A stretch of 64,000 bases of DNA from Leisingera sp. SS27 (GTDB taxonomy: Bacteria; Pseudomonadota; Alphaproteobacteria; Rhodobacterales; Rhodobacteraceae), in NCBI RefSeq assembly GCF_028368855.1, contig NZ_JAQNCY010000003.1:248001-312000 (forward strand), in the 5' to 3' direction. Each line of letters opens with the position of its first letter. Position 1 is the first letter of the stretch. Below, one piece after another: positions 19,309 to 35,805 of the stretch. A model generated the notes under the pieces. It saw nothing but the letters and a program-made list of their open reading frames with translations, had not been told where the DNA came from and ran no database searches. The translations under genes were made by a program, and so were the position numbers.

Positions 19309-19463
19309 TCGTTCCTCCCTTGAAACTCGGGCTTCATGACGGCTCTTAAGGACGCCGGGCCCGTGGCTCCCCCTTTTGGTGATTTTGGCCTGAGGCCCGG
19401 GATGCCTGCCAGAAAGGCTAGGTGCTGCCGTGCGGGGTTGGCCAACTCAAATATTTCATTAAA

Positions 19464-19482
19464 CTATGCAGAAAACGCATAG
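19464..19482. promoter_or_regulatory. LysR-type box between dctP and the LysR gene
   Basis: CTATGC and GCATAG are separated by seven bases, an interrupted palindrome of LysR-box type. It stands in the divergent promoter region, 43 bases before the LysR start and about 156 bases before dctP. Confidence 0.5.
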
Positions 19483-19524
19483 ACGTTTGTTTCCAGCATA
19501 TTGGCGTTGATCGGGAGGTCTGTG

Positions 19525-20409: not shown

Positions 20410-21300
20410 GAGGCCGGGGCCGTCCGGCGCATCGCCCAGCAGGCGCCAGACGGCTTCCTGCTGACGGCTGCTGCGCCCGGCGAGGCGGATCATCACCACG
20501 CTCAGCTCTTCCGCGGGCAGGCCGGGCACGCGCAGCAGGCGGGCGGCTTCAAGATGCGGCCTGACCAGGCTCAGCGGCAGCCAGGCAACGCCGATCCCGT
20601 CCAGCGCATATTCGCAGGCCGCCAGCGTCAGCGCGGTTTCGGCCTTGGGCAGCAGCACGGTGCCGTCCGGCAGCCGGGGTTGAATCGCGTGGCTGGCTAC
20701 CCGGCCGAGAAACACATCGGACGGGTAGGTGATTGCGGGGATTTCGGTTTGCTCCAGCGCGGCCATAAGGGAGGGCGCTGCCACCGGCACCAGCTGGTCG
20801 GTTCCCAATGCGCGGGTGCCGAAGGCATCGGGCAGCGCAAGGTTTCCGCCGCCGGTCCAGTCATAAGCGACGGCGAAATCGGCTTCGCCTGACAGCAGCT
20901 GCATCAGGCAGGCATCGCGGTTGCCTGAGCGGACCCGCACCGGCTGGTCCTGTGCGGAGGTCAGCAGTTTCACGATCCAGGGCGAGATGGTTGCCGTGAT
21001 CGCGTGCTGGCAGGCAAAGGCAACGCCGCGGCCGCCGCTCTCGACCGATATCTTCAGGTCGTGCTCCAGGCGGCGCAGGCGGGCGCTGAGTTCGCGCAGT
21101 TCAGGCTCCATCGCCATAACGCCGGGCAGGATCGTCACCGGCTTGCGGGCGCGGTCGAACAGTTGGAGGCCAAGGCGGGTCTCGATGCCGCGCACCCGCC
21201 GGGTGAAGGCGGGCTGAGTCAGCAGACGCTGTTCTGCCGCGCGCGCCAGAGAGCCTGTGTCAATCACCGCAAGTATGTCGTCAATCCAGTCCAGCTGCAT
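20404..21300 (-). CDS. LysR-family regulator, probable regulator of the sulfo-lyase/racemase pair
   Basis: A 298-residue LysR-type regulator. The helix-turn-helix reads QLDWIDDILAVIDTGSLARAAEQRLLTQPAFTRRVRGIE, followed by the linker and effector domain (GGRGVAFACQHAITATISPWIVKLL). I chose ATG 21300 because the LysR domain begins there; in-frame codons upstream run into the divergent promoter. It is divergent from the CuyA-like gene, the obvious target, and convergent with the other LysR gene. Confidence 0.92.
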   Translation of the reverse strand: MQLDWIDDILAVIDTGSLARAAEQRLLTQPAFTRRVRGIETRLGLQLFDRARKPVTILPGVMAMEPELRELSARLRRLEHDLKISVESGGRGVAFACQHAITATISPWIVKLLTSAQDQPVRVRSGNRDACLMQLLSGEADFAVAYDWTGGGNLALPDAFGTRALGTDQLVPVAAPSLMAALEQTEIPAITYPSDVFLGRVASHAIQPRLPDGTVLLPKAETALTLAACEYALDGIGVAWLPLSLVRPHLEAARLLRVPGLPAEELSVVMIRLAGRSSRQQEAVWRLLGDAPDGPGLS

Positions 21301-21380
21301 GGCGGCAGGATACTTGGAAAACCCTGTAACATGCAAGGAAGGCAACTTAAGGTGCGAATTTTGCATTAGTTTACCGGAAT

Positions 21381-21400
21381 AAGGCCAGTTAACTTGCCTT
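21381..21400. promoter_or_regulatory. Candidate LysR operator upstream of the CuyA-like gene
   Basis: AAGGCCAGTTAACTTGCCTT is palindromic at 18 of 20 positions, with AGTTAACT at its core. It ends 22 bases before the CuyA-like start. A related half (AAGGCAACTTAAGG) occurs about 40 bases upstream. Confidence 0.45.
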
Positions 21401-21422
21401 AAATCCACTTTAGGAGAGCCCT

Positions 21423-22442
21423 ATGCATCTTGCCCGCTTCCCCCGCCGTTTCATCGCCCATCTGCCCACGCCGCTGGAGCGGCTCGACCGTCTGAGCAAG
21501 GAGCTGGGCGGGCCCGAGATCTGGATCAAGCGGGACGATTGCACCGGGCTGTCCACCGGCGGCAACAAAACCCGCAAGCTGGAGTTCCTGATGGCAGAGG
21601 CGGAGCTGCAGGGGGCCGACATGGTCATGACCCAGGGCGCCACCCAATCGAACCATGCCCGCCAGACCGCAGCCTTTGCAGCCAAGCTGGGGCTGGACTG
21701 CCATATCCTGCTGGAGGACCGGACCGGATCGAACAACGCGAACTACAACAACAACGGCAACGTTTTGCTGGACCACCTGCATGGCGCCACAACTGAAAAA
21801 CGTCCGGGCGGTCTGGACATGAATGCCGAAATGGAGGCCGTTGCCGAGACGTTCCGCGCAGATGGCCGCAAGGTCTATACGATCCCCGGCGGCGGTTCCA
21901 ACGCCACGGGTGCCCTGGGCTATGTGAACTGCGCATTTGAAATCCTGCAGCAGGCGAATGCCGGCGGGCTGCAGATCGACCACATCGTGCACGCCACCGG
22001 CTCTGCCGGCACCCAGGCGGGGCTGATCACTGGCCTTAAGGCAATGAACGCACAGATCCCGCTCCTGGGCATCGGTGTCCGGGCGCCCAAGCCCAAGCAG
22101 GAAGAGAACGTTTATAATCTGGCCTGTGCCACGGCGGAGAAGCTGGGCTGCGCCGGCATCGTGCAGCGCGAGGATGTGGTGGCCAACACCGATTACGTCG
22201 GCGAGGGCTATGGCATCCCGACTGAGGGCGGGCTGGAAGCGATCCGCATGTTTGCCGAGCTGGAAAGCATCCTGCTGGATCCGGTTTATTCCGCCAAGGG
22301 AGCGGCCGGCTTTATTGATCTGATCCGCAAGGGCCATTTCAAGAAAGGTGAGCGGGTGGTATTCCTGCATACCGGCGGCGCGGCGGCGCTGTTCGGCTAT
22401 GACAGCGCGTTCGACTTTGCGGGCCGCTGGAAATCAGCCTGA
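21423..22442 (+). CDS. cuyA: L-cysteate sulfo-lyase / D-cysteine desulfhydrase family PLP enzyme
   Basis: A 339-residue fold-type II PLP enzyme. [22 protein letters not shown] near residue 40 contains the PLP lysine. [13 protein letters not shown] binds substrate and [13 protein letters not shown] binds phosphate. The start MHLARFPRR and the overall sequence resemble Roseobacter CuyA, which cleaves L-cysteate to pyruvate, ammonia and sulfite. D-cysteine desulfhydrases and ACC deaminase are close relatives and cannot be excluded. It is followed 32 bases later by an aspartate/glutamate racemase and is divergent from a LysR gene. The name is given for the closest recalled family; substrate preference is inference. 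Confidence 0.7.
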
Positions 22443-22474
22443 TCTGACCCTTGAAGGAGGTACCGGCAGAAGAC

Positions 22475-23203
22475 ATGCGCACGCCCAGACCGATAGGCAT
22501 CCTTGGCGGCATGGGGCCGGAGGCGACAGTGCTGATGATGCAGCGCATCATCAGCTGCACCCCTGCGGCACGTGATCAGGACCATATCCAGCTGCTGGTG
22601 GACTGCAATCCGCAGGTGCCGTCGCGGATTGATCACCTGATCCGCCGCACCGGCCCGGATCCGGCTCCGGTGCTGGCCGGGATGGCGCAGCAGCTGGAGG
22701 CGATGGGGGCCAGGGCGCTGGTGATGCCCTGCAATACCGCGCATTTCTACGCGCCGGCCATCACCGCCGCCTGCGGCATTCCCCTGATCAGTATGATCGA
22801 GGCGGTGCCCGAAGCGATCAAGGCATCGGGGCTGCCGCTGCGGAGTGCCGGCATACTGGCGTCGCCGGCGGTGCGGATGACGGGAATTTATGAAGCTCCT
22901 GCAAGGGCGCGCGGGCTGGAGCCGCTCTATTGCAGTGAGGAGGACGAGCTTCTGCAGCTGATCCAGACGATCAAGGCAGAGGGCGTCACAGACCTCTCCC
23001 GCCGAAGGCTGGGTGAGCTGGCGGCCGGCCTGCGGGCGGCTGGGGCAGACTGCATCGTGACCGCCTGCACCGAATTTTCGCTGCTGTTCGACGGGCTGGA
23101 GGCGGATGTTCCTGCGTTTGACGCGTTGAACGAGGTCAGCCGGGCCGTTGTCGCATTTGCCATGCAGGATGTGCGGCAGGGGGAGGCGCCCGGAGGGGGC
23201 TAG
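22475..23203 (+). CDS. Aspartate/glutamate racemase family protein
   Basis: A 242-residue racemase of the cofactor-independent Asp/Glu family. PIGILGGMGPEATVLMMQRII is the N-terminal signature. Both catalytic cysteines are present, in LVMPCNTAHFYAP near residue 85 and IVTACTEFSLLF near residue 195. GAAGGAGG at 22453-22460 lies a rather long 14 bases before the ATG at 22475; an alternative TTG at 22451 would include the ribosome site and is rejected. Co-transcription with the CuyA-like enzyme suggests it supplies the right stereoisomer of a cysteate- or aspartate-like substrate. Confidence 0.85.
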   Translation: MRTPRPIGILGGMGPEATVLMMQRIISCTPAARDQDHIQLLVDCNPQVPSRIDHLIRRTGPDPAPVLAGMAQQLEAMGARALVMPCNTAHFYAPAITAACGIPLISMIEAVPEAIKASGLPLRSAGILASPAVRMTGIYEAPARARGLEPLYCSEEDELLQLIQTIKAEGVTDLSRRRLGELAAGLRAAGADCIVTACTEFSLLFDGLEADVPAFDALNEVSRAVVAFAMQDVRQGEAPGGG

Positions 23204-23689: not shown

Positions 23690-24802
23690 TTAAGCTGCAA
23701 TCAAGCGGCCGGCAAACGTCTGCAGCCTTTCCCGCTGAAACTGAACAAAGTCCGCCGGCGGCTGGTTGGCTTCGGCGACGCCGCGGAACGGATCTTCGAC
23801 ATTGCTCTGGATTCCTGCCATCGTTGCGATCACCTCATGGGCGCAGAAGGGCACAACCGCCTCGGCATAGCCGCCTTCATGCACCGCGACCAGTTTGCCG
23901 CCGCACAGGTCGCGCGCGGCCTTCATCACCGCGCGGGTGAGATAGGCGAATGTGCCGCTGTGCGCGGTCATCCGGCTGAGCGGATCGAAGTTATTGGCAT
24001 CAAGCCCGCAGGCCACGATGATCAGATCCGGATTGAATTCGTAGAGCGCGGGCAGCACCAGAAGCTCCATCGCATCGGCATAAGACTGGTGGCCGGCCCC
24101 CGACAGCAGTTCAACGTTGAGATTGCAGCCGGTGCCGGCGCCGGACCCGCGCTCCTCGCCCCGGCCGGAGCCCGGCGGGAAGCAGCTTTGCTGGTGGATC
24201 GAGATTGTGAAGACGTCGTCACGTTCATAGAAGATGTCCTGGGTGCCGTTACCGTGATGCACATCCCAGTCGAGCACCGCGACCCGGCCCAGCCCTTTTT
24301 CAGCCTTGGCGGCCTCGATGGCGATCGGAATGTTGGCGAGCAGGCAGAAGCCCATGGAGCCTTCGCGCCCGGCGTGGTGCCCCGGCGGGCGCGACAGCGC
24401 ATAGGCGTTCTGATAGGTGCCGTCCAGCACATCAAAAACCGCCTGCCGTGCCAGGCCGGCTGACAGTGCGGCAATTTCGTAGCTGCCTGCACCAAAGGGC
24501 GAGAATACTCCGGCGTTGCCGCCGCCCGCATCGCTGAGCGCCTTGAAGCGTTCGATATAGCCGCCGCTGTGTACCCGCGCCATTTCGCATTCGGTGACGG
24601 GCCGGGCGGACTGCACACCCAGCTGGGCTGTCAGTCCGGACACATCCATCAGCGACTTAAGCCGCCGTTTGGATTCCGGCGATTCCGCGTGGCCGGCGCC
24701 TGCGGGCGGCTGCACCCAGCCCCCCACCGGCATGATCAGCGCGTGTTCGCCAGTGGTATGCCACAGGCAATGTTCGTCAAAGTAAAATCCTGTACCCGGC
24801 AT
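23690..24802 (-). CDS. Class II histone deacetylase-like amidohydrolase
   Basis: A 370-residue zinc amidohydrolase of the HDAC/acetylpolyamine amidohydrolase superfamily, class II type. ALSRPPGHHAGREGSMGFC gives the tandem active-site histidines near residue 140. VAVLDWDVHHGNGTQDIFY supplies zinc ligands near residue 178, and IIVACGLDANNFDP supplies the last zinc aspartate near residue 265. It removes acyl groups from amines such as N-acetylpolyamines. It lies 26 bases after a porin gene and ends an ABC importer operon, so the substrate is probably imported. There is no signal peptide, so it acts in the cytoplasm. Confidence 0.92.
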   Translation of the reverse strand: MPGTGFYFDEHCLWHTTGEHALIMPVGGWVQPPAGAGHAESPESKRRLKSLMDVSGLTAQLGVQSARPVTECEMARVHSGGYIERFKALSDAGGGNAGVFSPFGAGSYEIAALSAGLARQAVFDVLDGTYQNAYALSRPPGHHAGREGSMGFCLLANIPIAIEAAKAEKGLGRVAVLDWDVHHGNGTQDIFYERDDVFTISIHQQSCFPPGSGRGEERGSGAGTGCNLNVELLSGAGHQSYADAMELLVLPALYEFNPDLIIVACGLDANNFDPLSRMTAHSGTFAYLTRAVMKAARDLCGGKLVAVHEGGYAEAVVPFCAHEVIATMAGIQSNVEDPFRGVAEANQPPADFVQFQRERLQTFAGRLIAA

Positions 24803-24828
24803 TTTCGTCTCTCCTCGATGTGCAGGTT

Positions 24829-26157
24829 TCAGAAGCGCAGCGTTGCGTTCAGCAGCGCGGTGAACTGGTCGTTGCGGCCGCCGCCAAACAGGGTGCCGCC
24901 GCCGTCATAGGTGTCGTAACGCAGCTCTGGCCGGATCCGCAGCGCGGGAGTTGCTTGCCATTCCAGCCCCGCCGTCACCGCATAGACATTGCCGCCGGTA
25001 GCGCCATTGGCGGCCCACTGGATGTTGGCGGCGTTGTCGTCGCGGAACCACTCGGCGCGCCCGTTCAGATGCAGATTGTCCGCAAGCTTGTAACGGGCCT
25101 GGGCATTGAGGCCGTACCATTCGCTTTTTCGGGTGATCGCGCCGGGCGCCGGAATATCGCCGCCCTCCTGAAAGCCGTAGTTGGCCTCAAAAGCCAGGGA
25201 CAGATCAGGGTTCACCTGATGGCCAACCGTCAGATAGGCGGCGGCGCGGTCAAGCCGCTCATCCGTGGAGCTGAGCGCGATATAGGCGGAACCTCCGCGG
25301 GCCGGGCCATAGGCGTCGCCCTCGCCGTCGCCATAGACCGCTTCGAAATCGACCCAGGTCCGGAAATCCGCACTGCGCCAGCGCAGCGCGCCGATCAGCG
25401 TCGGGCGGCTGTCTTCCACTGTGCTCCAGCCGGTCACGGCGCCCAGCTCAAACCCCCAGAGCCCGGCCCCTTCGCGCGTGGGCAGGCGCGAGCTGATCAG
25501 AACACCGGTATGTGTGCCCGGCCCGTGCTGCAGGCTGTAGGTATGGGTCGAAAACCAGTTGGGCGGGGTGAACGGCAGGCCGATTTCCTTGCCGGAAACC
25601 GGCGACAGGAAGTTGCCCGCCAGAACCGTGGTGCCGCCCAGCACCGGCAGATAGACCTCAGCATAGGCCTGCGGGAAGGCCAGCTTGTTGTCATTGTCCA
25701 GATCGGAGGTGAAATCGTCAAACCCAGCAGTGCGGAAGAAGTCGGAATCCCGCCCGTAAGTTGCCGTGACGTTGAAGCCGAACTCCACCTGGCCGCCGCG
25801 CGGCCCCGGAAAAGGGCCAACCCGGGCAATGACGCCTTGAGGGCGGCCGGCCAGCGGGCCCGGGCAGCTGATACCGCGGCAGAACACCAATCCCAGCTGG
25901 TTGAGGTTCAGCCCTTTCTCGCCGGAGAAAAACGCACCGTTGCCGAGCGACCCGTCCGCGCCAGTGCTGGACGCGGTGATTGCGGTGGCATCCACCCAGC
26001 CCAGGACACCGATACGGTGGTTCTTTTCCAGGCTGCCGCCCGCGATGCTGCGGAACAAAGAGCCGTAGGCATCCGGCGGCGGAGCATCCTCTGCGCGGGT
26101 TGCGGCAGGCAGCAGCGATCCGGCCAGCCAAGCGGCCAGCATCAAACTCTTCTTCAT
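24829..26157 (-). CDS. Outer-membrane beta-barrel porin (BBP2-type)
   Basis: A 442-residue protein with a signal peptide (MKKSLMLAAWLAGSLLPAATRAE). A long series of alternating beta-strands ends in a C-terminal phenylalanine (NATLRF), the outer-membrane insertion signal. Stretches such as VLGWVDATAITASS and FPQAYAEVYLPVLGGTTVLAGNF resemble the putative beta-barrel porin-2 group. Placed inside an ABC importer operon, it likely passes the same solute across the outer membrane. Embedding of a dedicated porin in a branched-chain-type operon is unusual. Confidence 0.8.
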   Translation of the reverse strand: MKKSLMLAAWLAGSLLPAATRAEDAPPPDAYGSLFRSIAGGSLEKNHRIGVLGWVDATAITASSTGADGSLGNGAFFSGEKGLNLNQLGLVFCRGISCPGPLAGRPQGVIARVGPFPGPRGGQVEFGFNVTATYGRDSDFFRTAGFDDFTSDLDNDNKLAFPQAYAEVYLPVLGGTTVLAGNFLSPVSGKEIGLPFTPPNWFSTHTYSLQHGPGTHTGVLISSRLPTREGAGLWGFELGAVTGWSTVEDSRPTLIGALRWRSADFRTWVDFEAVYGDGEGDAYGPARGGSAYIALSSTDERLDRAAAYLTVGHQVNPDLSLAFEANYGFQEGGDIPAPGAITRKSEWYGLNAQARYKLADNLHLNGRAEWFRDDNAANIQWAANGATGGNVYAVTAGLEWQATPALRIRPELRYDTYDGGGTLFGGGRNDQFTALLNATLRF

Positions 26158-26193
26158 TTTTCCCCTCCTGAAGGTGTGGTCTTGCGGGCCGCT

Positions 26194-27120
26194 TCAGACG
26201 GCCCTTCTGGTGTTGGGGAGCAGGCGGTCCAGCAGGCCGCTCAGCCCCCTCGGCGCCATCAGCATCACCGCAACCGCGATGACGCCGAGGGCAATCTGGC
26301 TCCAGCCGGGATAGGCAGCGAGCCCCTCCCGCAGGAGTACGAACAGCAGCGCGCCCAGCACCGGGCCGCGGATGGTCCCAAGCCCCCCGATCACGCAGAT
26401 GAAGATCGCATTCACTGTCCAGTTGATGTCGAAGGCGGCAACCGGCGAGACATAAAGCGTGCCAAGAAAGCTGATTGCCCCGGCCATTCCGCAGCCTGCC
26501 GCAGAGAGCACAAAGATGGTCCCTTTGATCCGCCTGGTCTTTACCCCCAGCGAACGGGCGGCGGTTTCGTCATCGCGCATCGCATGGACATGCAGTCCAT
26601 AGGGGCTTTGCTGCAGCCGCCACAGGCCCAGGCACAGCCCCGCGGCCAGTGCCAGCGCAAACCAATGCGCCGAGGCGGGCAGCCAGCTGGTGTCGATCCG
26701 CCGCGCCGCATAAAGCGGCAAGCCGGACGAGGCTCCGAAGTAGTCCAGGCGGCTGACAGCGATCTTGACGATCTCCGCCGCCACCCACATGCCGATGGCG
26801 AAATAAACCTCGCGCAGGCGGAACAGCACCGGGGTCAGGGCAAGCGCCAGCAGCGCCGCCCCGGCCCCGGCCAACGGGACCATGATGTAGGGAGAGACAG
26901 GCAGGTCCCGTGTGACGGCAAACAAAAGGTACGCCCCGGCGGCGACAAATGCGTGGTGGCCAAGCGACAGCAGGCCGCCGTAGCCCGCCAGCAGGTTCCA
27001 GCTTTGGGCAATTGCCAGCAGCACCAGCATTTCAGTCAGCAGCGCCAGCCCGCCGACATCCAGCAGCGCTGGCGCCGCGGCGAGGGCTGCAAAAATCACA
27101 ACAGCAAGGGCCCGGGTCAT
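26194..27120 (-). CDS. Branched-chain-type ABC transporter permease (LivM type)
   Basis: A 308-residue inner-membrane permease with about nine hydrophobic segments. LLAIAQSWNLLAGYGGLLSLGHHAFVAAGAY is the LivM signature. RDDETAARSLGVKTRRIKGTIFVLSAAGCGMAGA is the cytoplasmic EAA-like coupling loop. VIGGLGTIRGPVLGALLF near the end is typical. Its ATG overlaps the LivH stop by four bases. Confidence 0.94.
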   Translation of the reverse strand: MTRALAVVIFAALAAAPALLDVGGLALLTEMLVLLAIAQSWNLLAGYGGLLSLGHHAFVAAGAYLLFAVTRDLPVSPYIMVPLAGAGAALLALALTPVLFRLREVYFAIGMWVAAEIVKIAVSRLDYFGASSGLPLYAARRIDTSWLPASAHWFALALAAGLCLGLWRLQQSPYGLHVHAMRDDETAARSLGVKTRRIKGTIFVLSAAGCGMAGAISFLGTLYVSPVAAFDINWTVNAIFICVIGGLGTIRGPVLGALLFVLLREGLAAYPGWSQIALGVIAVAVMLMAPRGLSGLLDRLLPNTRRAV

Positions 27121-27986
27121 CGTGTCACCGCCTTTCCGGCAAGCCCCTGCGGGCGGATGAGAAGGAAGACCAGCAGCAGAAGGTGCCCGTAGAGCAGCCC
27201 CGATGCCGGATCGAAGTAGAAACCCGCCACATGCACCAGCGCTAGGGCGATGCCGCCAAGGTAGCTGGCCCAGATCGAGCCAAGCCCGCCGATCACGATC
27301 ACTTCAAAGGCGATCAGAAGCCGCTCGGCGCCGGAAAACGGCGTGATCGAACTGCGCGAGGCCAGCAGCATGCCCGCGAGTGCCGCACAGGCGGCTGAGA
27401 CCGCCATGGCGACGGCAAAGATGCGGCGGCGGCGGATGGCGAAAAGCGCCACGGTTTCCGCATCATCGGAGGTTGCGCGGACGGCCCGGCCCAGCCGGGT
27501 CTTGCGCAGCACCAGATGCAACCCGCCGAACAGAGCCAGCGACAGCAGGAAGATACCAAGCGGCAGCCAGCCGATCGTCTGGCCGGCAATAGTGAGATTG
27601 GCGGTCTTGACCGCGCCCAGGTCGATGCTGCGGCTGTTGGCTCCGTAGAGGCCGACCATGGCATTCTGCATCACCACCGAAAGGCCGAAAGTGACCAGCA
27701 GCGCAGGCATCGGGTCCGGGCTCAGCACCCGGTTCAGCAGTTGTGCCTGCAGCAGCCAGCCGAAGGCGAAGGCGCCCGCGCAGACCAGCGGCATCAGCAG
27801 CAGGGGGCTGACCGGCCAGTCCGCGCTGAGGGTGAACAGCGCCAGTGCGCCGGCAATGGCCAGCTCGCCGTGGGCAATATTGGCAATCCGCATGACGCCG
27901 AAGATCAGCGACAGCCCCAGCCCGAACAGCGCATAGAGCCCGCCCAGGAACAGACCGTTCATCAGGATTTCGATGGCTGCATTCAT
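27117..27986 (-). CDS. Branched-chain-type ABC transporter permease (LivH type)
   Basis: A 289-residue inner-membrane permease. LGGLYALFGLGLSLIFGVMRIANIAHGELAIAGA is the LivH opening. RATSDDAETVALFAIRRRRIFAVAMAVSAACAALAG is the coupling loop, and VIGGLGSIWASYLGGIAL follows. It overlaps LivF upstream and LivM downstream by four bases each. It forms the channel with the LivM-type protein. Confidence 0.94.
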   Translation of the reverse strand: MNAAIEILMNGLFLGGLYALFGLGLSLIFGVMRIANIAHGELAIAGALALFTLSADWPVSPLLLMPLVCAGAFAFGWLLQAQLLNRVLSPDPMPALLVTFGLSVVMQNAMVGLYGANSRSIDLGAVKTANLTIAGQTIGWLPLGIFLLSLALFGGLHLVLRKTRLGRAVRATSDDAETVALFAIRRRRIFAVAMAVSAACAALAGMLLASRSSITPFSGAERLLIAFEVIVIGGLGSIWASYLGGIALALVHVAGFYFDPASGLLYGHLLLLVFLLIRPQGLAGKAVTR

Positions 27987-28687
27987 TGGTTCTCTCCGAA
28001 ATAGGCCTGGCTCACCTGTTCGATACAGGCGCCATCCGAAGCACCCGCCAGCGACACTTGCCCGCCAAGCATGCAGTAGAAGCGGTCAGAGGCCGCCAGC
28101 GCCCTGCGGATATCCTGTTCGACCAGCACAATGGTGGTGCCGCGCGCCTTGAGGCCGGACAGGGCCTCGTACACCCGGTCCACAATCACCGGCGCCAGCC
28201 CGAGGGAGGCCTCATCCACCAGCAAAAGCTCCGGGTTGGTCATCAGCGCGCGGCCGATGGCCACCATTTGCTGCTGGCCGCCCGACAACAGCCCGGCGGG
28301 CCGCTGCGCCATTGGCGCGATCTCACTGAACAGCTCGAGTACCCGCGGCAGGGTCCAGTGGCCGCGCCGTCCGACATCACCGCCGATCATCAGGTTTTCC
28401 GCGACTGTCAGGCTGGGAAACAGCCGGCGGCCTTCCGGCACCATGGCGATGCCGCGCCGTGCCAGCGCGCCGGGGTCCTGTGCCAGAATGTCCTGCCCGG
28501 CAAAGGTCAGCTGTCCGGCTTCGCGTGTGCCCAGCCCGGCAATTGCGCGCAGCAGCGTGGTCTTGCCAGCGCCATTGGCACCGATCAGCGCGACGGTCTC
28601 CCCCTTGCCCACATGGGCATCAATCCCGAACAGGGCCTGAAAATCGCCGTGGCGGGCGGTCAGTTTCTGCATCTGCAACAGGGTCAT
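27983..28687 (-). CDS. Branched-chain-type ABC transporter ATPase (LivF type)
   Basis: A 234-residue ATP-binding subunit. LIGANGAGKTTLLRAIAG is Walker A near residue 33. LLSGGQQQMVAIGRALMTNPELLLVDEASLGLAP contains the ABC signature and Walker B. LVEQDIRRALAASDRFYCMLGG contains the switch region; its usual histidine is replaced by aspartate (EQD, as in EQN/EQD of LivF proteins). Overlaps of four bases link it to its neighbours. Confidence 0.94.
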   Translation of the reverse strand: MTLLQMQKLTARHGDFQALFGIDAHVGKGETVALIGANGAGKTTLLRAIAGLGTREAGQLTFAGQDILAQDPGALARRGIAMVPEGRRLFPSLTVAENLMIGGDVGRRGHWTLPRVLELFSEIAPMAQRPAGLLSGGQQQMVAIGRALMTNPELLLVDEASLGLAPVIVDRVYEALSGLKARGTTIVLVEQDIRRALAASDRFYCMLGGQVSLAGASDGACIEQVSQAYFGENQ

Positions 28688-29397
28688 GCCGCCGCCCCCA
28701 GATAAAGCGCACGCACCTGCGGATCGGCGGCAACGACCTCCGGGCGGTCTTCGATCAGCTTGCGCCCCAGCGCCAGCATCATGATCCTGTCGGACGCCTC
28801 CTGCAGCGCGTGGGCGATATGCTCAATCCACAGGACCGCGAAGCCCGCCTCCTTCAGGCGCTTGACCAGTGCCACCATCTCGGCGGTTTCCTGATCAGTC
28901 AGCCCGCCGGACACCTCGTCCAGCAGGATCACCTTGGGATCGGAGGCCAGCGCCTTGGCCAGCTCCAGCCGCTTGCGGTCCAAGAGCCGCAGCGCGGTGC
29001 CAGGACTGGTGCGGTGCGGTCCCAGGCCGGTGATCTCCAGTATCTCCTCCACCCGTGCCCTTGCGTCCTTGGGTGCAATACCGTGGCTGGCGTGCTGCGC
29101 CAGATACAGGGTGTCGCTGACACTGAGCGACGCAAAGGCGCGCGGCACCTGAAAGGCACGCGCCAGCCCGGCGCGCACCCGCCCGGCGGTATCGAACCCG
29201 GTGACATCGCGCCCGGCCACGCGGACCGATCCGCCATCGGCACGTGTGACATCGGTCAGCAGATCAAAGAACGTGCTCTTGCCCGCCCCATTGGCCCCCA
29301 TGATGCCGAGGCAGCTGCCGGGTTCCACGGTGACCGAGACATCCTCGATCACCCGCAGGCCGCCAAACGCCTTGCTGAGATTTCGCGCGTCCAGCAT
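28684..29397 (-). CDS. Branched-chain-type ABC transporter ATPase (LivG type)
   Basis: A 237-residue ATP-binding subunit. AFGGLRVIEDVSVTVEPGSCLGIMGANGAGKSTFFDLLTD holds Walker A near residue 36. GTALRLLDRKRLELAKALASDPKVILLDEVSGGLTD holds a degenerate signature (RLLDRKR replaces LSGGQ, as in many LivG proteins) and Walker B. WIEHIAHALQEASDRIMML carries the switch histidine. It begins three bases before the end of the binding-protein gene region and overlaps LivF. Confidence 0.93.
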   Translation of the reverse strand: MLDARNLSKAFGGLRVIEDVSVTVEPGSCLGIMGANGAGKSTFFDLLTDVTRADGGSVRVAGRDVTGFDTAGRVRAGLARAFQVPRAFASLSVSDTLYLAQHASHGIAPKDARARVEEILEITGLGPHRTSPGTALRLLDRKRLELAKALASDPKVILLDEVSGGLTDQETAEMVALVKRLKEAGFAVLWIEHIAHALQEASDRIMMLALGRKLIEDRPEVVAADPQVRALYLGAAA

Positions 29398-29400
29398 GGC

Positions 29401-30681
29401 TCAGACCTTGGGCAAGGCGATGGTTTCGCTTTCGGCGCGGATGCCGGGTGCGAGGGTGTTCTCGGTGATCACCAGCTCAAACGCATGCTTGCCCGAGGAC
29501 TTGCGCCACTGGCCGCCTGCCAGCTGCGTTTTGGCCACATTGCGGATCGGGCTGGAGGCAAAATCCACCGGCCCCACAACCGTATCCAGTTTTGTCGCGG
29601 CAAACACGTCGCGCACCGCCGCCCGGTCCTTGGGCGCGCCGGACTGCACCAGAGCGTTCAGGCCTACTTCGAACAGTGCGTGGCTGTAGCCCAGCGTTTG
29701 CACCCATTGCGCATTGCTGTCCGCCTCCCAGGCGCCGGCCAGCTCGCGGGCATTTTGCCCTGTGAAGGAGGAGGCAAAGGGCACATTCGGGGTCCACCAG
29801 ACCTCTGTTGTCATGCCGTCGCCACGCGCGCCCATCGCCTCAATCGCCTGCGGAAACAGGAAGGCCGCGGCAAAGGTGCAGGCCTTGGGTGTGTAGCCCG
29901 CCTGGCCCGCCTGGTTCCAGAAGGTGATCCAGTGCGGCGGGAAGCCAAAGCCGGTCACGATATCGGCCTCCGCCTCGCGGAAACGGCTGACCTGGGCGGA
30001 ATAGTCATCCGCATCGATCTTGAACATGCCGCCGTCGGTGCGCGAATAGCCGCCCCGTTCGATAAAGCCCGGCAGCCCCATGGCGGGATCGGCAAAGGCC
30101 TGCCCGACCGGATTGTCGAGGTAGAAGTCGCCGACGGTCCTGTTTGTGTCGATCTGGTCCCAGAGCCGCACAAAAGTGCTCATCGCGTCATCCGCGCCCC
30201 AGAAGAAGTGGAACGTCCAGGGAAAGCCCTGTTCGGGGTTGGAGCCGCGCGGGAACATCCAGGCCTGCCAGGGCTGCATGGTGCTCATCGTCGGGATGCC
30301 GTGGATATCGGCGATCTCGCCCAATGCGACCGCCGCATCCCCGTCGTTGATCAGCAGCATGTCGACCTGGTCGCGCAGGATCAGCTCATTGCCGGCAGAG
30401 ATTGAGCGGTTCATGTTGGACTGGTTGTCCTTCACGATGATCTCCACCTCATGAGCGCTGCCACCGGCGTTCAGCCCGCCTTCCAGCTGCTTGCGGATGG
30501 TGCTGACCATCCATTGGTCCGAGGTCCCGAAGGAGGCGCGCGGCCCGCTCAGCGGCGAGATGAAGCCGATCCGCACCTTTTTGGAAGCCGCAGTTGCAAT
30601 GGACGGCATCGCCAGTGCGCCGGTTGCGGCAACAGTTCCGGCCAGGAAACCGCGGCGGCTGAATGATGAATGTCTGGTCAT
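29401..30681 (-). CDS. ABC transporter periplasmic binding protein, Tat-exported
   Basis: A 426-residue type I periplasmic binding protein of the Leu/Ile/Val/amide class. The N-terminus SSFSRRGFLAGTVAATGALAMPSIATA is a twin-arginine signal. VRIGFISPLSGPRASFG opens the binding fold. Tat export suggests cofactor- or rapid-folding needs and is common in this subclass for non-amino-acid ligands. The ATG at 30681 follows GGGAGGATCACC; upstream in-frame codons overlap the operator and are rejected. It is the first gene of the importer operon, three bases from the LivG-type gene. Confidence 0.93.
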   Translation of the reverse strand: MTRHSSFSRRGFLAGTVAATGALAMPSIATAASKKVRIGFISPLSGPRASFGTSDQWMVSTIRKQLEGGLNAGGSAHEVEIIVKDNQSNMNRSISAGNELILRDQVDMLLINDGDAAVALGEIADIHGIPTMSTMQPWQAWMFPRGSNPEQGFPWTFHFFWGADDAMSTFVRLWDQIDTNRTVGDFYLDNPVGQAFADPAMGLPGFIERGGYSRTDGGMFKIDADDYSAQVSRFREAEADIVTGFGFPPHWITFWNQAGQAGYTPKACTFAAAFLFPQAIEAMGARGDGMTTEVWWTPNVPFASSFTGQNARELAGAWEADSNAQWVQTLGYSHALFEVGLNALVQSGAPKDRAAVRDVFAATKLDTVVGPVDFASSPIRNVAKTQLAGGQWRKSSGKHAFELVITENTLAPGIRAESETIALPKV

Positions 30682-30730
30682 GGTGATCCTCCCTTTTCCA
30701 AAACGGTAGGGAAGGCGCCCCGGTACAAAC

Positions 30731-30748
30731 ATAGTGCATATGCACCAT
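30731..30748. promoter_or_regulatory. Operator copy B upstream of the ABC operon
   Basis: ATAGTGCATATGCACCAT differs at one base from the perfect palindrome at 31833. It lies about 50 bases before the binding-protein start, in the correct place to control the operon. The preceding CAAAC is also shared in part with copy A. Confidence 0.7.
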
Positions 30749-30849
30749 GCCTGTGCTGGGGTCCCGAGATCACGAAAGCGGTCAGAGCCGGACGGCAAGG
30801 CGACGGAGTTTCAGCGGGACAGGCCTGCGGTGTTGCAGCGCCGCGATGC

Positions 30850-31797
30850 CTAACGCGGCAGGCTGCCCGCCAGGCGCAGCAGCTCAACTTTGCTGTGCAC
30901 ACCTGTCTTCCGGTAGATGGAAGCTGCCTGATTCCGCACGGTATTAACCGAGACGCCAGCCGCTTCGGCAATTGCCCGCATGGTCGCTCCGGAAATCAGC
31001 AGCTCCGCCACTTGGCGCTCCTTTGGCGAAAGACCGGTTAAGGGGCTGACAGGCTGCGCGGAGACCAGCCACAGATCTGCCGAGTACCGGGCGCGGCTGA
31101 AAGTTGTCCCCGAGGCAGCGGTGGTCACCGGCTGCCCGGCCAGCTTCCGCAGCTTCTCCGTCTGCTTCTGCCCGGGTTCAAGCCCGGCTTTCACCGCGGC
31201 ACCAAAACCGGAGGAGCATAGAAACAGCTCCCCCTCATGGTCCAGAAGCGCCCACTCGTTGCCGGGATCCACCCGCAATCCGAGGTCAAGCTGCAGGCAC
31301 ATCGACAACGCCTGTTCCAGATGCCTCAGGATGGCCAGGAAATCTGTTGTCTCTGTGTCGGTGAAGGCTGGTTTCTGACCATGCCGGTAGAGCGACATGA
31401 AGAAATTGAATGGCCCCTCGCGCACCTTGCAATGACCGTTCAGCATCTGGGTCAGGTCGAACTCCCCGGCAAAAATCTTGAACCCGGGATCTGTCACCGC
31501 ATCCTCAACCGACAAAGACCGGGCATAGCGTTTCAGAGAGCGGCCCGTGCGGACGAAAGGATCATTCACCAGATGCGCCTTGACCTTGGGTTCGAACCCC
31601 TCCGGCAGGCCGCTGACCATCGTGTGCACCATGGCGATCTTGCCGCCGCGGAACACGGACCAGCCCCACCAGGCGGAATCAAACACCGTGATCCCGCGCA
31701 TCAGCCCGATCATGTGCTGCTGAAAATTCAGTGGCGTATGGGTGTTGGCCTTGTCCATCAGGCTCAGCACAAATTCACTCAAATCATAGCGGTTCAT
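30850..31797 (-). CDS. LuxR-type transcriptional regulator
   Basis: A 315-residue regulator. The last 65 residues are a LuxR/NarL-type helix-turn-helix: LSPKERQVAELLISGATMRAIAEAAGVSVNTVRNQAASIYRKTGVHSK. The N-terminal 240 residues are unlike autoinducer-binding or receiver domains and may bind the transported compound. ATG 31797 was chosen because upstream in-frame codons read through the 18-bp palindrome. It lies between the importer operon and the divergent NTF2/dehydrogenase genes, with an operator copy on each side, so it probably regulates both and itself. Confidence 0.85.
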   Translation of the reverse strand: MNRYDLSEFVLSLMDKANTHTPLNFQQHMIGLMRGITVFDSAWWGWSVFRGGKIAMVHTMVSGLPEGFEPKVKAHLVNDPFVRTGRSLKRYARSLSVEDAVTDPGFKIFAGEFDLTQMLNGHCKVREGPFNFFMSLYRHGQKPAFTDTETTDFLAILRHLEQALSMCLQLDLGLRVDPGNEWALLDHEGELFLCSSGFGAAVKAGLEPGQKQTEKLRKLAGQPVTTAASGTTFSRARYSADLWLVSAQPVSPLTGLSPKERQVAELLISGATMRAIAEAAGVSVNTVRNQAASIYRKTGVHSKVELLRLAGSLPR

Positions 31798-31832
31798 CAG
31801 GTCCGGGTATCCCGCGCCAAGCTGCAAAACAC

Positions 31833-31850
31833 ATAGTGCATATGCACTAT
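31833..31850. promoter_or_regulatory. Operator copy A, perfect 18-bp palindrome
   Basis: ATAGTGCATATGCACTAT is a perfect palindrome, 36 bases upstream of the LuxR-type start and about 87 bases upstream of the divergent NTF2-like start. LuxR/NarL-type dimers bind 18-20-bp palindromes of this form. Confidence 0.75.
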
Positions 31851-31936
31851 ACATCGCCACTCTTTCCCTGACTAGCGTTGCTGCCAGCGCCCCGGAACGA
31901 TCCGGGGCAAGCGCAAACGCAAGGGAGGATTGCACC

Positions 31937-32314
31937 ATGACTGCTACGCTGAAAGACGTGATCGCCGCCAAGTCGCGCCAGTTTGAGGCGGATTTCGCTG
32001 CCGGCGACATCGCCGCGCTGGTGGAGGGCTATTATACATCCGATCCCGTGGTGATCGGCCAGGGGGTTGGAACCTTTTCCGGGCGCGATGGCGCCTCGGC
32101 CTATTTCCTTGGCGCCGTGCAGGACATGAAAACGGCGCTGCTTACCACCACGTCCGTGCAGCAAGAGGGCAGCAGCGCCATTGAAACAGGCCGGGTGGTA
32201 CTGACGCCGCGGGCCGAAGGCGCAGGTGAGATCCATCTGGCCTATGTGGTGGTCTGGCAGAACGGCGAAGACGGCTGGAAGGTCCATATGGACTATTTCA
32301 TGCCCGCCGCCTGA
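31937..32314 (+). CDS. NTF2-like/SnoaL-type small protein
   Basis: A 125-residue cone-shaped NTF2-fold protein of the DUF4440/SnoaL type. IAAKSRQFEADFAAGDIAALVEGYYTSDPVVIGQG opens the fold and AYVVVWQNGEDGWKVHMDYF closes it. Such proteins bind or isomerise small hydrophobic ligands. GGGAGG precedes the ATG. It is followed 23 bases later by an aldehyde dehydrogenase and shares a divergent promoter with the LuxR-type gene. Its job is probably in the same pathway. Confidence 0.85.
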   Translation: MTATLKDVIAAKSRQFEADFAAGDIAALVEGYYTSDPVVIGQGVGTFSGRDGASAYFLGAVQDMKTALLTTTSVQQEGSSAIETGRVVLTPRAEGAGEIHLAYVVVWQNGEDGWKVHMDYFMPAA

Positions 32315-32337
32315 TCCGCTGGCAAGGAGAACATCCC

Positions 32338-33738
32338 ATGGCATTTGAGATGACAATCGGCGGTGCGCCCGCGCCTGCGGCCGCCCGCTTTGATGTGGCA
32401 AACCCGGCAGGCGGGCTGGCAGGCCAGGCGCCGAACGGAACGCTGGCGGATCTGGATCGGGCCGTCACCGCCGCGCAGGAGGCTTTCGCCAGCTGGTCGC
32501 AGCTCCCGGATGGCGAGCGGCAGCGTTACTGCGAGGCCGTGACAGCGAAGATTGCGGACCATTCAGAAGAACTCGCGCAGCTGATCACGGCGGAACAGGG
32601 TAAACCGCTCAACGGGCTTGGATCACGGTTTGAAATGGGCGGCGCGCAGGCCTGGGCTGGCTGCACCGCGGGCCTGTCACTGCCCGTCAAAGTGTTACAG
32701 GACAACGCGGAGGGCAGGGTCGAGCTGCACCGGAAACCTCTGGGCGTCGTCGGATCGATCACGCCGTGGAACTACCCGGTGATGATCGCGGTGTGGCATA
32801 TCCTGCCTGCGCTGCGCACCGGCAATACGGTGGTGATCAAGCCGTCGCCGCTCACTCCGCTCAGCACGCTGCGGCTGGTCGCGCTGCTGAACGATGTGCT
32901 GCCCGCAGGCGTCCTTAACTGCGTCACCGGCGACGACCGCAGTGAAAACCTGGGTGCAGCCATGTCGGCCCACCCCGGCATCCGCAAGATCGTCTTCACC
33001 GGCTCCTGCGCGACGGGAGAGAAGATCATGGCCTCAGCTGCGCCCACGATGAAGCGGCTGACATTGGAAATGGGCGGCAATGACGCGGGCATTGTGCTGC
33101 CGGACGCCGACCCCCAGGCAATCGCCGAGGGGCTGTTCTGGGGGGCCTTCATCAACAATGGGCAGACCTGTGCGGCGCTGAAACGCCTCTATGTGCACGA
33201 GGACATCCATGACGCGGTTTGCGCCGCGCTGGCAGAATTCGCCCGCGGCATTCCGGTCGGGCCGGGATCGGACGAGAACTCCATCCTCGGTCCGCTGCAA
33301 AACCCGATGCAGCACGCCAAGGTGGCCCGGCTTGTCGCCAGCGCCCGCGAAAAGGGACAGGTGCTGCTGGGCGGCAATCCCGGTGAAGGGCTGTTCTTTG
33401 AGCCGACCATCATCGCAGGCCTCGCCAACGGCGATGCGCTGGTGGATGAGGAACAGTTCGGCCCGGCCCTGCCGGTGATCAAATACCGCGATGTGGAAGA
33501 GGCGGTAGCCGCCGCCAACGACAGCCCCAACGGGCTGGGCGGGTCGGTCTGGTCCAGCGACATTGCCAGGGCGCGCCGCGTCGCGGCACGGCTGGAATGC
33601 GGTTCTGTCTGGATCAACAAGCACGGTGCGATCCAGCCCAACGCGCCCTTTGGCGGGGTGAAATCCTCCGGTCTCGGTGTGGAGTTCGGCGAGGAGGGGC
33701 TGGCGGAATACACCGATATCCAGGTGGTGTTCGCCTGA
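32338..33738 (+). CDS. Aldehyde dehydrogenase family protein
   Basis: A 466-residue NAD(P)-dependent aldehyde dehydrogenase. SITPWNYPVMIAVWHILPALRTGNTVVIKPS binds the cofactor near residue 140. LEMGGNDAGIVLPDAD contains the general-base glutamate near residue 243. NNGQTCAALKRLYV carries the catalytic cysteine near residue 278. EEQFGPALPV and PFGGVKSSGLGVEFGEEGLAEYT complete the family pattern. AAGGAGA precedes the ATG. The gene follows the NTF2-like gene and may oxidise an aminoaldehyde from the imported compound; that substrate is inferred from the deacetylase neighbour. Confidence 0.93.
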   Translation: MAFEMTIGGAPAPAAARFDVANPAGGLAGQAPNGTLADLDRAVTAAQEAFASWSQLPDGERQRYCEAVTAKIADHSEELAQLITAEQGKPLNGLGSRFEMGGAQAWAGCTAGLSLPVKVLQDNAEGRVELHRKPLGVVGSITPWNYPVMIAVWHILPALRTGNTVVIKPSPLTPLSTLRLVALLNDVLPAGVLNCVTGDDRSENLGAAMSAHPGIRKIVFTGSCATGEKIMASAAPTMKRLTLEMGGNDAGIVLPDADPQAIAEGLFWGAFINNGQTCAALKRLYVHEDIHDAVCAALAEFARGIPVGPGSDENSILGPLQNPMQHAKVARLVASAREKGQVLLGGNPGEGLFFEPTIIAGLANGDALVDEEQFGPALPVIKYRDVEEAVAAANDSPNGLGGSVWSSDIARARRVAARLECGSVWINKHGAIQPNAPFGGVKSSGLGVEFGEEGLAEYTDIQVVFA

Positions 33739-33766: not shown

Positions 33767-34141
33767 TTATCCGGCGCTGTCGTAACGCTCCCGCGCCGAC
33801 AGGATTTCCGGCTGTTTCGCCACTGCCCAGGCGGCCATGGCGCCAATGGGTTCGAACAGCGACCTGCCCAGATCTGTGATGGCATAATCAACCCGCGGCG
33901 GCACCACCGGAGTGACCCTGCGCGCCACCAGCCCGTCCCGCTCCAGCTGCCGCAGGGTCTGGGTCAGCATCCGCTGCGAGACATCCGGGATCGCCCGCTG
34001 AATCTCGGAAAACCGGTATTCCCCCTCCCGCAGCAGCAGGATCACCAGCAGGCTCCACTTGCCGCTGATCTGCGCCAGTACGGTCCGGATCGGGCACAGA
34101 TCCAGCCCCAGCTCCCGTTCGATCTCTTCACGACGCTTCAT
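33767..34141 (-). CDS. HxlR-family transcriptional regulator
   Basis: A 124-residue winged-helix regulator. CPIRTVLAQISGKWSLLVILLLREGEYRFSEIQRAIPDVSQRMLTQTLRQLERDGLVARR is the HxlR domain with the characteristic N-terminal cysteine, which in YodB-type proteins senses quinones or electrophiles. It is divergent from the tandem SnoaL-like gene and a YceI gene, its likely targets. Confidence 0.92.
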   Translation of the reverse strand: MKRREEIERELGLDLCPIRTVLAQISGKWSLLVILLLREGEYRFSEIQRAIPDVSQRMLTQTLRQLERDGLVARRVTPVVPPRVDYAITDLGRSLFEPIGAMAAWAVAKQPEILSARERYDSAG

Positions 34142-34193: not shown

Positions 34194-34245
34194 TTATTCG
34201 TAACTTATGAGCCCGACTCAGGCAACTGTCACGATGGAGACCACA

Positions 34246-35076
34246 ATGACACTTCTTAAAAATGCAGCTGCAGCTGTGCTTGCCTCCGCTGCAGCAACCA
34301 GCGCCGCAGCAGGCCCGGCAGGAAACAAGGCCACAGCCGTCGCCCTGCTTGAGCAGGGCCTCGCCAAGGGGGATCGCGATTTCATCCGCGCGCATGTCGC
34401 CGAAGGCTACATCCAGCACAACCCGCAGGCCGCCGACGGGCGGGAAGGGCTGTTGGGGTTCGTTGACTTCCTGGAAACGCTGGATCCGCCCGTGCAGGTC
34501 AACCCGATCCGGGTGTTCGGAGTTGAGAACTTCGTGGTGATCCACCAGACCGCGGAATTCTTTGGCCCTAAGGTGATCATTGACCTGTTCCGCTTTGAAG
34601 ACGGCAAGCTGGTTGAGCATTGGGACGCCATCCAGGAGGAGGTGACCGAAACCGCCAGCGGCCGCTCCATGACTGATGGCGCCACTGAAATCACCGATTT
34701 GGAAAAAACGGACGTCAACAAGGCACTGGTCACCGGCCTCGTCACAGACGTGCTGATGGGCGGCGACCTTGCCAGGATCGACAGCTACATCCGCGCCGAT
34801 TACATGCAGCACAATCCCTATGTGCCGGACACCCGCGACGGGCTGAAGGGGTTCATCGCCTATCTGGCCGAAAACGAAATCTCCTTTGGCTACACCAAGC
34901 TGCACAACGTGGTGGCGGAAGGCAATTTCGTCATGACCCAGGCCGAAGGCATCTACGACGGCAAACCCACTGCCTTTTATGACCTGTGGCGCGTCGAGGA
35001 CGGGCTGATCGCCGAGCATTGGGACGCTGTCCAGGAAATCCCTGCCGAATTCGCCCACGGCAACGGCATGTTCTGA
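34246..35076 (+). CDS. Secreted tandem SnoaL-like (NTF2-fold) protein
   Basis: A 276-residue protein with an N-terminal signal-like segment (AAAAVLASAAATSAAA) and two copies of the same SnoaL-like unit. Copy one has YIQHNPQAADGREGL and FRFEDGKLVEHWDAIQE. Copy two has YMQHNPYVPDTRDGL and WRVEDGLIAEHWDAVQE. Each unit is about 120 residues, so the gene is an internal duplication. ATG 34246 was chosen because GGAGA precedes it and the signal starts there; in-frame ATGs at 34207 and 34234 are possible. A YceI gene follows 38 bases later and HxlR is divergent. The ligand is unknown. Confidence 0.85.
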   Translation: MTLLKNAAAAVLASAAATSAAAGPAGNKATAVALLEQGLAKGDRDFIRAHVAEGYIQHNPQAADGREGLLGFVDFLETLDPPVQVNPIRVFGVENFVVIHQTAEFFGPKVIIDLFRFEDGKLVEHWDAIQEEVTETASGRSMTDGATEITDLEKTDVNKALVTGLVTDVLMGGDLARIDSYIRADYMQHNPYVPDTRDGLKGFIAYLAENEISFGYTKLHNVVAEGNFVMTQAEGIYDGKPTAFYDLWRVEDGLIAEHWDAVQEIPAEFAHGNGMF

Positions 35077-35702: not shown

Positions 35703-35805
35703 GCTGAAGATTTCTAAGCGAACCAGCACTGGTGCCTTGCCGCCGGTGCTGGATTGGATGGGCCAGCCCCGCGACCAAGGGGCAGCTGCCGCCCGGTTGC
35801 CAGTT

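Follow-up and report, generated by a model that had tools for sequence, protein, structure and literature searches.

The locus described here lies in a 64,000-nucleotide stretch of Leisingera sp. SS27 (positions 248001–312000 of contig C23 in genome G000, 4.80 Mb), to which we refer as the window. It comprises one packed operon on the minus strand (23690–30681), which encodes a periplasmic binding protein (SBP), two ATPases, two permeases, a BBP2 porin and an enzyme resembling class II histone deacetylases (HDACs), as well as a LuxR-type regulator gene upstream of the SBP gene on the same strand and, divergent from luxR, genes for an NTF2-like protein and an aldehyde dehydrogenase (ALDH; table 1). 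Read from SBP to HDAC, the operon has gaps of 3, −4, −4, −4, 36 and 26 bp, with 168 bp between SBP gene and luxR, 139 bp between luxR and the NTF2 gene, and 23 bp between the NTF2 and ALDH genes. These gaps were computed with corrected starts. The SBP gene begins at about 30681, not at 30798, with GGAGG preceding the ATG and with the sequence SRRGFLAG at the N-terminus, which we take to be a Tat-type signal; luxR more likely begins at about 31797 than at 32010, because M72 of the long open reading frame aligns with the annotated start in Ruegeria pomeroyi. A previous sequence-only reading of this DNA had proposed the same gene order and strand, which Pfam matches and gene gaps bear out, and had recognized the adjoining regulator, NTF2-like and ALDH genes, which the GerE, DUF4440/SnoaL_2 and Aldedh matches confirm. 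The conserved unit extends further, to 35076, and takes in genes for an HxlR-type regulator and a SnoaL-like protein (SnoaL2), both kept in R. pomeroyi.

Table 1. Features of the locus, in window coordinates. Names such as Tat signal, HAAT, moa regulon or Pot transporter follow common usage or annotation tables.
Feature	Position	Strand	Match or sequence
Class II HDAC-like zinc amidohydrolase of cluster 1b type; final operon gene	23690..24802	−	PF00850 263 bits
BBP2 (OmpL-like) outer-membrane beta-barrel porin, N-terminal signal-like sequence	24829..26157	−	PF07642 171 bits
HAAT (branched-chain-type) permease, LivM-like	26194..27120	−	PF02653 129 bits
HAAT permease, LivH/UrtB-like	27117..27986	−	PF02653 110 bits; UrtB 134 bits, below cut-off 250
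HAAT ATPase, LivF-like	27983..28687	−	PF00005; LivF 200 bits, below cut-off 441
HAAT ATPase, LivG/UrtD-like	28684..29397	−	PF00005; UrtD 151 bits, below cut-off 304
SBP (Peripla_BP_6), presumed Tat-type signal	29401..30681	−	PF13458 136 bits
Putative operator palindrome 1, upstream of SBP gene	30731..30748	.	ATAGTGCATATGCACCAT, 1 mismatch
LuxR-type regulator with its own N-terminal domain	30850..31797	−	GerE 42 bits
Putative operator palindrome 2, without mismatch, in the luxR–NTF2 gap	31833..31850	.	ATAGTGCATATGCACTAT
NTF2/SnoaL-like small protein (DUF4440; SnoaL_2)	31937..32314	+	PF14534 49 bits
Aldehyde dehydrogenase (Aldedh)	32338..33738	+	PF00171 464 bits
HxlR-type regulator	33767..34141	−	PF01638 102 bits
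SnoaL-like protein (SnoaL2), two matched stretches	34207..35076	+	PF12680 82 bits

In a second species of the genus (genome G411, stretch L119), all ten genes from HDAC to ALDH are found at 90–97% identity, with HxlR and SnoaL2 at 94–95%. R. pomeroyi DSS-3 carries on its megaplasmid (SPO_RS20295–20345, NC_006569) the order LuxR-SBP-ATPase-ATPase-permease-permease-HDAC plus the divergent NTF2-ALDH pair, with identities of 89% for SBP, 76–78% for the permeases, 82% for HDAC, 64% each for LuxR and NTF2, 78% for ALDH and 80% each for HxlR and SnoaL2. Since all ten recur in the second Leisingera species, and the operon minus the porin gene in R. pomeroyi, the gene set is not a product of chance.

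Both intergenic regions around luxR contain a palindrome, i.e. the perfect 18-bp sequence ATAGTGCATATGCACTAT and its copy with one mismatch, ATAGTGCATATGCACCAT. In shuffles of the window such a palindrome, with up to three mismatches, is expected 0.00 times; its 14-base core, with at most one mismatch, occurs at these two sites only in the entire genome, where the core read backwards as a control has no match. R. pomeroyi has the palindrome at both equivalent places (TAGTGCAGATGCACTA and TAGTGCATCTGCACTA), as has the second Leisingera species, and when the three are aligned, no part of either intergenic stretch has longer runs of identical columns than the palindromes, while the flanks have diverged. 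The two sites are thus candidates for a shared operator, to which the LuxR-type protein would bind, and such a shared operator points to a single regulon made up of luxR, transporter operon and NTF2-ALDH. Scans for promoters and terminators stayed close to the shuffled expectation (3 versus 1.8 and 12 versus 9.5, respectively), and a promoter-like match whose second hexamer overlaps palindrome 2 was not used as evidence.

Comparisons beyond these three species are based on a sample of 76 HDAC loci in addition to that of the window, of which 39 come from the family, 12 from scans of class and phylum and 24 from plasmid records, the remaining one being L119. L080, in which the stretch has no HDAC, and the 1-kb stretch L129 are not part of the sample. 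The family loci, which are not a random draw, are the 30 best-scoring after the window's own plus nine lower ones, taken from 187 matching genomes among 394; the plasmid loci are 24 of 27 records, with three near-copies from Shinella (H14–H16) left out; and some contigs (L054, L057) are short, so that neighbours may be missed there.

In the window LuxR, the GerE helix-turn-helix (HTH) is the only domain to pass its Pfam cut-off. An autoinducer-binding domain was not matched, for which reason a role as an acyl-homoserine lactone receptor in quorum sensing was rejected. Outside the HTH, the N-terminal part has no Pfam match either here or in the Agrobacterium relative, and motifs such as FDxAWWGW and NFFMSLYR are present in four of six aligned N-terminal parts (window, R. 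pomeroyi, Rhodobacter sp. KR11 and Agrobacterium). Among 40 of the 76 loci covered by this comparison, seven have a full-length-type relative of the regulator, defined by more than 150 matched residues at E≤1e-5 to any of three related queries (L119, R. pomeroyi, Agrobacterium, Rhizobium 32-5/1, G1073, Burkholderia vietnamiensis and G034). For the LuxR proteins of Klebsiella and Pantoea, similarity to that of the window is confined to a short stretch, which in Klebsiella contains the HTH. In Rhodobacter sp. KR11 (L008, 8035–13282), a LuxR protein and a transporter are 40% and, for the SBP, 61% identical to those of the window. The SBP gene of KR11 is preceded by a different palindrome, TAGTAGGAACCTACTA, which has its outer bases in common with the putative operator of the window.

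The enzyme encoded last in the operon has no signal sequence. Among the 60 of 137 PDB matches listed, eight sequences reach E≤1e-100, i.e. two 'Deacetylase' entries with the FIQQQ motif of KpHdaH, four entries named HDAH or acetoin utilization, a dimethoate hydrolase and a propanil hydrolase, and the KpHdaH-type entry 9glb scores 498 bits versus 120 bits for the acetylpolyamine amidohydrolase 9gkz. With the KpHdaH-type entry, HALIMPVGGWVQPPAG in the L1-loop as well as RPPGHH, HEGGY and DWDVHHGNG, with the presumed zinc-site residues, align gap-free. Judged by its sequence, the window HDAC is closest to cluster 1b (KpHdaH, PA3774, dimethoate and propanil hydrolases), not to cluster 4. Its tunnel motifs, placed via the alignment to KpHdaH, are hydrophobic and read LIM, GVFSP and VAEAN, compared with LFL, GHLAP and MAEAW in the dimethoate hydrolase and VTL, GKEAP and FIQQQ in KpHdaH; R. 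pomeroyi keeps LIM and VAEAN and has GEFSP, one residue less hydrophobic, as the second motif. Hydrophobic tunnel motifs are what sets the dimethoate and propanil hydrolases apart from KpHdaH in the main text of Graf et al. 2024 (PMC11532494). Subgroup and tunnel motifs together point to a small hydrophobic amide as the probable substrate.

The import system has the composition of a HAAT-type ABC transporter, with a type-6 SBP, two BPD_transp_2 permeases and two ATPases by Pfam; the listed permease and ATPase matches stay below the Liv and Urt cut-offs of NCBIfam, and the SBP has no NCBIfam match. An AlphaFold model of the SBP, built from seven sequences, has a mean pLDDT of 62, and a PDB search led to type-6 proteins that bind leucine, urea or one of several aromatic acids; this is too weak a basis for choosing a ligand. 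The porin matches PF07642 over its full length (residues 52–442; cut-off 26 bits). In a sample of 325 family genomes, about one per genus and not including G411, it was found at E≤1e-20 in one, the window's own; together with G411, it has been seen in two species of a single genus only. In R. pomeroyi, where no porin is present, 4 bp separate the end of the permease gene from the start of the HDAC gene. The GC content of the porin gene (66%) resembles that of its neighbours and does not suggest a recent arrival. On plasmids, its best-matching relatives are proteins of Sphingobium (47% identity) in hydroxyquinol dioxygenase clusters, and a 36% relative in Acinetobacter lies about 3 kb from amidase and AmiS-like genes. 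Because it was found in just one of the 325 family genomes, we take the porin to have been added locally to an older operon that had none; its loss in R. pomeroyi, though possible, fits the family count less well.

How often an HDAC of this kind is coupled to an importer can be judged from the sampled loci, where a HAAT transporter was counted if adjacent to the HDAC, or separated by two genes, in a same-strand run. Single ATPase matches lacking a permease (L049, L067, L074) were not counted, and the transporter scan did not cover L179, which is annotated, or L180, which is not. Such a transporter is present in L119, in one of the 39 family loci (L044, G034), in none of the 12 class and phylum loci and in six of the 24 plasmid loci (Ruegeria, Variovorax, Martelella, two Shinella and Roseovarius). 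By identity, the transporters of Variovorax (SBP 50%, permeases 51–54%) and Martelella (SBP 41%, permeases 42–43%) are orthologous or close to that of the window, whereas Shinella and G034 have transporters with greater distance or hardly any match to it. In seven loci the HDAC has an MFS permease as its neighbour (Agrobacterium, two Klebsiella-type loci, Rhizobium 32-5/1, G1073, G959 and G962). Pairing of HDAC and importer is thus recurrent, not general. In an HDAC tree of 31 rows, among which Roseovarius is not represented, the window is united with G411 and R. pomeroyi in a starred group, itself inside a starred seven-row group that includes G034, and Variovorax, Martelella (on a long branch) and Shinella fall outside the window's group; the HAAT label requires at least two changes even if unlabelled rows are ignored, although starred branches alone force just one. 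The pairing was probably assembled more than once. Within the genus, the SBP occurs in close form in two of 21 genomes (G000 and, at 94%, G411), with 40% relatives in four others, and an HDAC of the window type (E≤1e-60) in four of 21, with orthologues in G000 and G411 and proteins of 51% and 47% identity in the other two. A lack of joint conservation, which the sequence-only reading had named as refuting it, thus applies in part: the genes stay together in G411 and, minus the porin, in R. pomeroyi, but at most of the family loci the HDAC has no such transporter beside it. On a plasmid of Roseovarius sp. W115 (L178), an aminotransferase gene precedes HDAC (41% identity), SBP, two ATPase and two permease genes on one strand, i.e. 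an arrangement of the same logic. In L087 and L089 (G410 and G407), relatives of the SBP lie inside an 823-residue open frame with one internal TGA.

For the ALDH to act, an amine would first have to be turned into an aldehyde, a step that the sequence-only reading had found to be missing from the window. Class-III-type aminotransferase genes are present in nine of the 76 HDAC loci (L044, L049, L079, L139, L141, L142, L173, L178 and L179, with L139, L141 and L142 being close kin), counting four reference genes or matches of at least 44% and excluding four loci with matches of 26–32%; the type is backed by Pfam for L049 and by NCBIfam for L173 and L049, with L178 and L179 below cut-off. Seven of the nine, i.e. 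all except L079 and L178, have an ALDH match in the same stretch. With aminotransferase and ALDH genes beside HDAC relatives, a sequence from amide via amine and aldehyde to acid would fit part of this family. In the window genome the amine-to-aldehyde step would have to act from elsewhere. Copper amine oxidase, considered as the missing step, was found neither in G000 nor in G411, in a search limited to this family of amine-converting enzymes.

Other neighbours of HDAC relatives hint at the kind of amine. In Agrobacterium, hpaB, hpaD, hpaE, hpaH and hpaI surround a LuxR-MFS-HDAC-ALDH set whose ALDH is 63% identical to that of the window; the Pantoea locus has hpaR, hpaE and hpaD; and Bacillus badius has an HpaB-type hydroxylase, an aminotransferase and an ALDH with phenylacetaldehyde dehydrogenase as best model, all below cut-off. 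By BLAST, HpaB is present in two of the 76 loci. In two Klebsiella-type loci, moaE, moaF, atsA and feaB lie beside LuxR-MFS-HDAC. An ALDH at least 50% identical to the window's occurs in six of the 76 loci (L119, L130, L132, L147, L148 and L152). The window genome itself has a homoprotocatechuate (hpa) gene set on contig C3 (L166, 84500–104400), consisting of matches to hpaR, hpaD, hpaG, hpaH and hpaI, with an ALDH gene at the place expected for hpaE. In G034 (L044) and G104 (L049), the HDAC is near HPPD (81% identity between the two), a P450 and a class-III-type aminotransferase (88%).

Taken together, these data lead us to favour, with slightly more belief than doubt, a catabolic regulon under LuxR control whose substrate would be a small N-acyl amine, i.e. 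an amide. That uptake, deacylation and oxidation belong to one unit had been proposed in the sequence-only reading and now gains support from the shared operator and from the aminotransferase and ALDH genes beside some HDAC relatives. From the observed gene content, packing, palindromes, conservation in three species and enzyme subgroup, we infer regulator binding, substrate and every chemical step of the following scheme. The BBP2 porin would pass the amide across the outer membrane, and the SBP and the HAAT-type ABC transporter would carry it to the cytoplasm, where the HDAC-type zinc enzyme would split it into acid and amine. An aminotransferase or amine-oxidizing enzyme encoded elsewhere would convert the amine to an aldehyde, which the divergent ALDH would oxidize, and LuxR on the two palindromes, sensing substrate or product, would control both transcription units and its own gene. 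The compound is most likely an N-acylated aromatic (hydroxyphenylethyl) or other hydrophobic amine, e.g. N-acetyltyramine or N-acetyldopamine, rather than an acetylpolyamine. Because of the hpa, moa and related neighbour genes, N-acyl hydroxyphenylethyl amines are the best single guess, one that we would expect to be right about one time in four.

A number of observations weigh against this reading. Genes for 4-hydroxyphenylacetate degradation accompany the HDAC in just three of the 76 loci (Agrobacterium, Pantoea and Bacillus badius), to which the two Klebsiella-type moa loci can be added, and the contexts of other relatives differ (Rieske-type oxygenases, Dpp transporter, amidohydrolases), so that the substrate may vary among lineages. 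HpaB has no match in the 20 kb around hpaD of the window genome, the region in which it was sought, and hpaD as specific support is weakened, since 19 of 21 genus genomes carry it. The window ALDH finds its best NCBIfam model in aminobutyraldehyde dehydrogenase (408 bits against a cut-off of 615) and also stays below the StyD equivalog cut-off (367 versus 850 bits). No HDAC or porin was found in the 19-kb stretch of KR11 with regulator and transporter, a pair that can thus exist without an HDAC close by. The transporter's rarity at the family loci and the negative search for copper amine oxidase belong here too, as does the description of KpHdaH and PA3774, which are among the nearest solved relatives, as lysine deacetylases in the main text of PMC11532494.

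Three other explanations have to be considered. The operon could serve to detoxify or scavenge xenobiotic-like aryl or alkyl amides, from which the HDAC would free an amine or aniline for its nitrogen while the ALDH clears an aldehyde by-product. The nearest small-molecule enzymes, the dimethoate and propanil hydrolases with their matching hydrophobic tunnel motifs, speak for this. So do the neighbourhoods of HDAC relatives, with an amidase in both Variovorax and Martelella, a ring-hydroxylating oxygenase in both Martelella and Leisingera caerulea, and, in G034, a gene resembling N,N-dimethylformamidase that belongs to one same-strand run with HDAC and transporter, and so do the Sphingobium hydroxyquinol clusters that harbour porin relatives. 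In our judgement, however, a natural amide is likelier for a system kept in marine roseobacters, and a dedicated regulator with a conserved N-terminal domain suggests a long-standing ligand, which makes this explanation unlikely, though to be taken seriously.

Acetylpolyamines, the substrates suggested in the sequence-only reading, would be bound by the SBP as acetylputrescine or acetylspermidine and deacetylated by the HDAC, with the ALDH oxidizing aminobutyraldehyde. The aminobutyraldehyde dehydrogenase model as top score of the ALDH agrees with this, and the aminotransferase and ALDH neighbours of some relatives would suit polyamines as well. Yet the transporter is of the HAAT type and not of the spermidine/putrescine (Pot) kind, the acetylpolyamine amidohydrolase entry scores far below the KpHdaH-type one among the PDB matches listed, and the gatekeeper reads PLS rather than PIS, as in cluster 4, or PEG, as in HDAC10 (a position matched by eye, and a mild difference that does not decide alone). 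The HDAC groups with cluster 1b, and in a published panel of expressed bacterial enzymes, whose selection included the cluster-1b enzyme KpHdaH, the cluster-4 enzyme alone deacetylated acetylpolyamines (PMC11532494, main text). We consequently see little chance for this substrate. Least likely of all is that the HDAC regulates co-encoded proteins such as the ALDH as a lysine deacetylase, in the manner of AcuC and acetyl-CoA synthetase, with an unrelated transporter ligand: in vitro, KpHdaH robustly deacetylates lysine, as described in the main text of PMC11532494, and Klebsiella relatives are 58–60% identical to the window HDAC, but the tunnel motifs depart from KpHdaH towards the small-molecule enzymes, and the HDAC accompanies different kinds of transporters and catabolic genes in several lineages.

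Among known systems, the cluster 1b deacylases (KpHdaH, VsHdaH, PA3774 HDAH, DmhA and PrpH; PMC11532494) have the sequence group, the L1-loop region and the RPP, XGGY, HH and zinc-site motifs in common with the window HDAC, which differs by ending a HAAT uptake operon with a porin; in the main text of that paper, the terms 'transporter' and 'porin' do not occur and 'operon' occurs once. The R. pomeroyi DSS-3 cluster corresponds in regulator, transporter, HDAC, NTF2, ALDH, HxlR, SnoaL2 and both operators, and differs in that its HDAC gene directly follows a permease gene, with no porin. Klebsiella hdaH, in the moa/ats/feaB region, likewise has a LuxR-type regulator adjoining a permease and a cluster-1b HDAC, with an ALDH near, but the permease is of the MFS and not the ABC type, and no porin is annotated in the stretch. 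Pseudomonas aeruginosa PA0321 and PA1409 presumably neighbour polyamine ABC transporters, of another family and with another regulator than here. Both are acetylpolyamine amidohydrolases (PMC11532494) and belong to another HDAC cluster. The idea in common is that of an amide hydrolase with HDAC fold acting together with an uptake system. A report of this locus or of any HDAC-containing importer operon was not found in the literature within reach, i.e. outside subscription papers and supplements. Among the matches listed for N-acetyltyramine, R. pomeroyi transporters and Klebsiella moa, no title or abstract describes this system; no paper was found for the old locus tags, by estimate SPOA0095–SPOA0106; and the accessible text of PMC9870897, PMC10041152 and PMC12442348 contains nothing on the locus, as that of PMC10130141 lacks the search terms. 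The component families are all known, and it is their arrangement with its own porin and operator that is new. Of the novelty claimed previously, the porin, confined to two species of one genus, stands as special, whereas an HDAC within a branched-chain-type operon is not new, since it occurs in several genera.

Beside the operon, 16440–23203 contains a TRAP transporter, LysR genes, a PALP-type pyridoxal phosphate enzyme and an Asp/Glu racemase and looks like another uptake–catabolism set. On the other side, a sulfatase, a TauD-type dioxygenase and LysR genes (35801–39266) have about 87% DNA identity to Phaeobacter inhibens plasmids, and 42447–44155 has 84% identity to a bifunctional sulfate adenylyltransferase/adenylylsulfate kinase found on plasmids of Roseobacter and Sulfitobacter.

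In its most far-reaching form, which as a whole we consider improbable, the favoured reading would amount to an envelope-spanning, self-contained regulon. A LuxR protein with a Pfam-unmatched N-terminal domain would detect an N-acyl aromatic amine (N-acetyltyramine or N-acetyldopamine of marine animal or bacterial origin, for instance) and induce its own porin, importer, cytoplasmic HDAC-type amidase and ALDH, which would feed the homoprotocatechuate pathway of the host, with the pairing of regulator and HDAC being an old proteobacterial catabolic module. If such a module exists, part of the bacterial 'histone deacetylases' would be catabolic amidases. Thousands of bacterial class II enzymes of this name are uncharacterized (PMC11532494, abstract), and for some of them a testable role would be that of amide hydrolases in uptake operons with a dedicated LuxR-type regulator. 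R. pomeroyi DSS-3 has the porin-less version, and an arrayed mutant library exists for this strain (abstract of PMC10130141), so that screening for the substrate could begin soon. Should the ligand prove to be an N-acyl aromatic amine, marine bacteria would have an added route to the nitrogen and carbon of such compounds.

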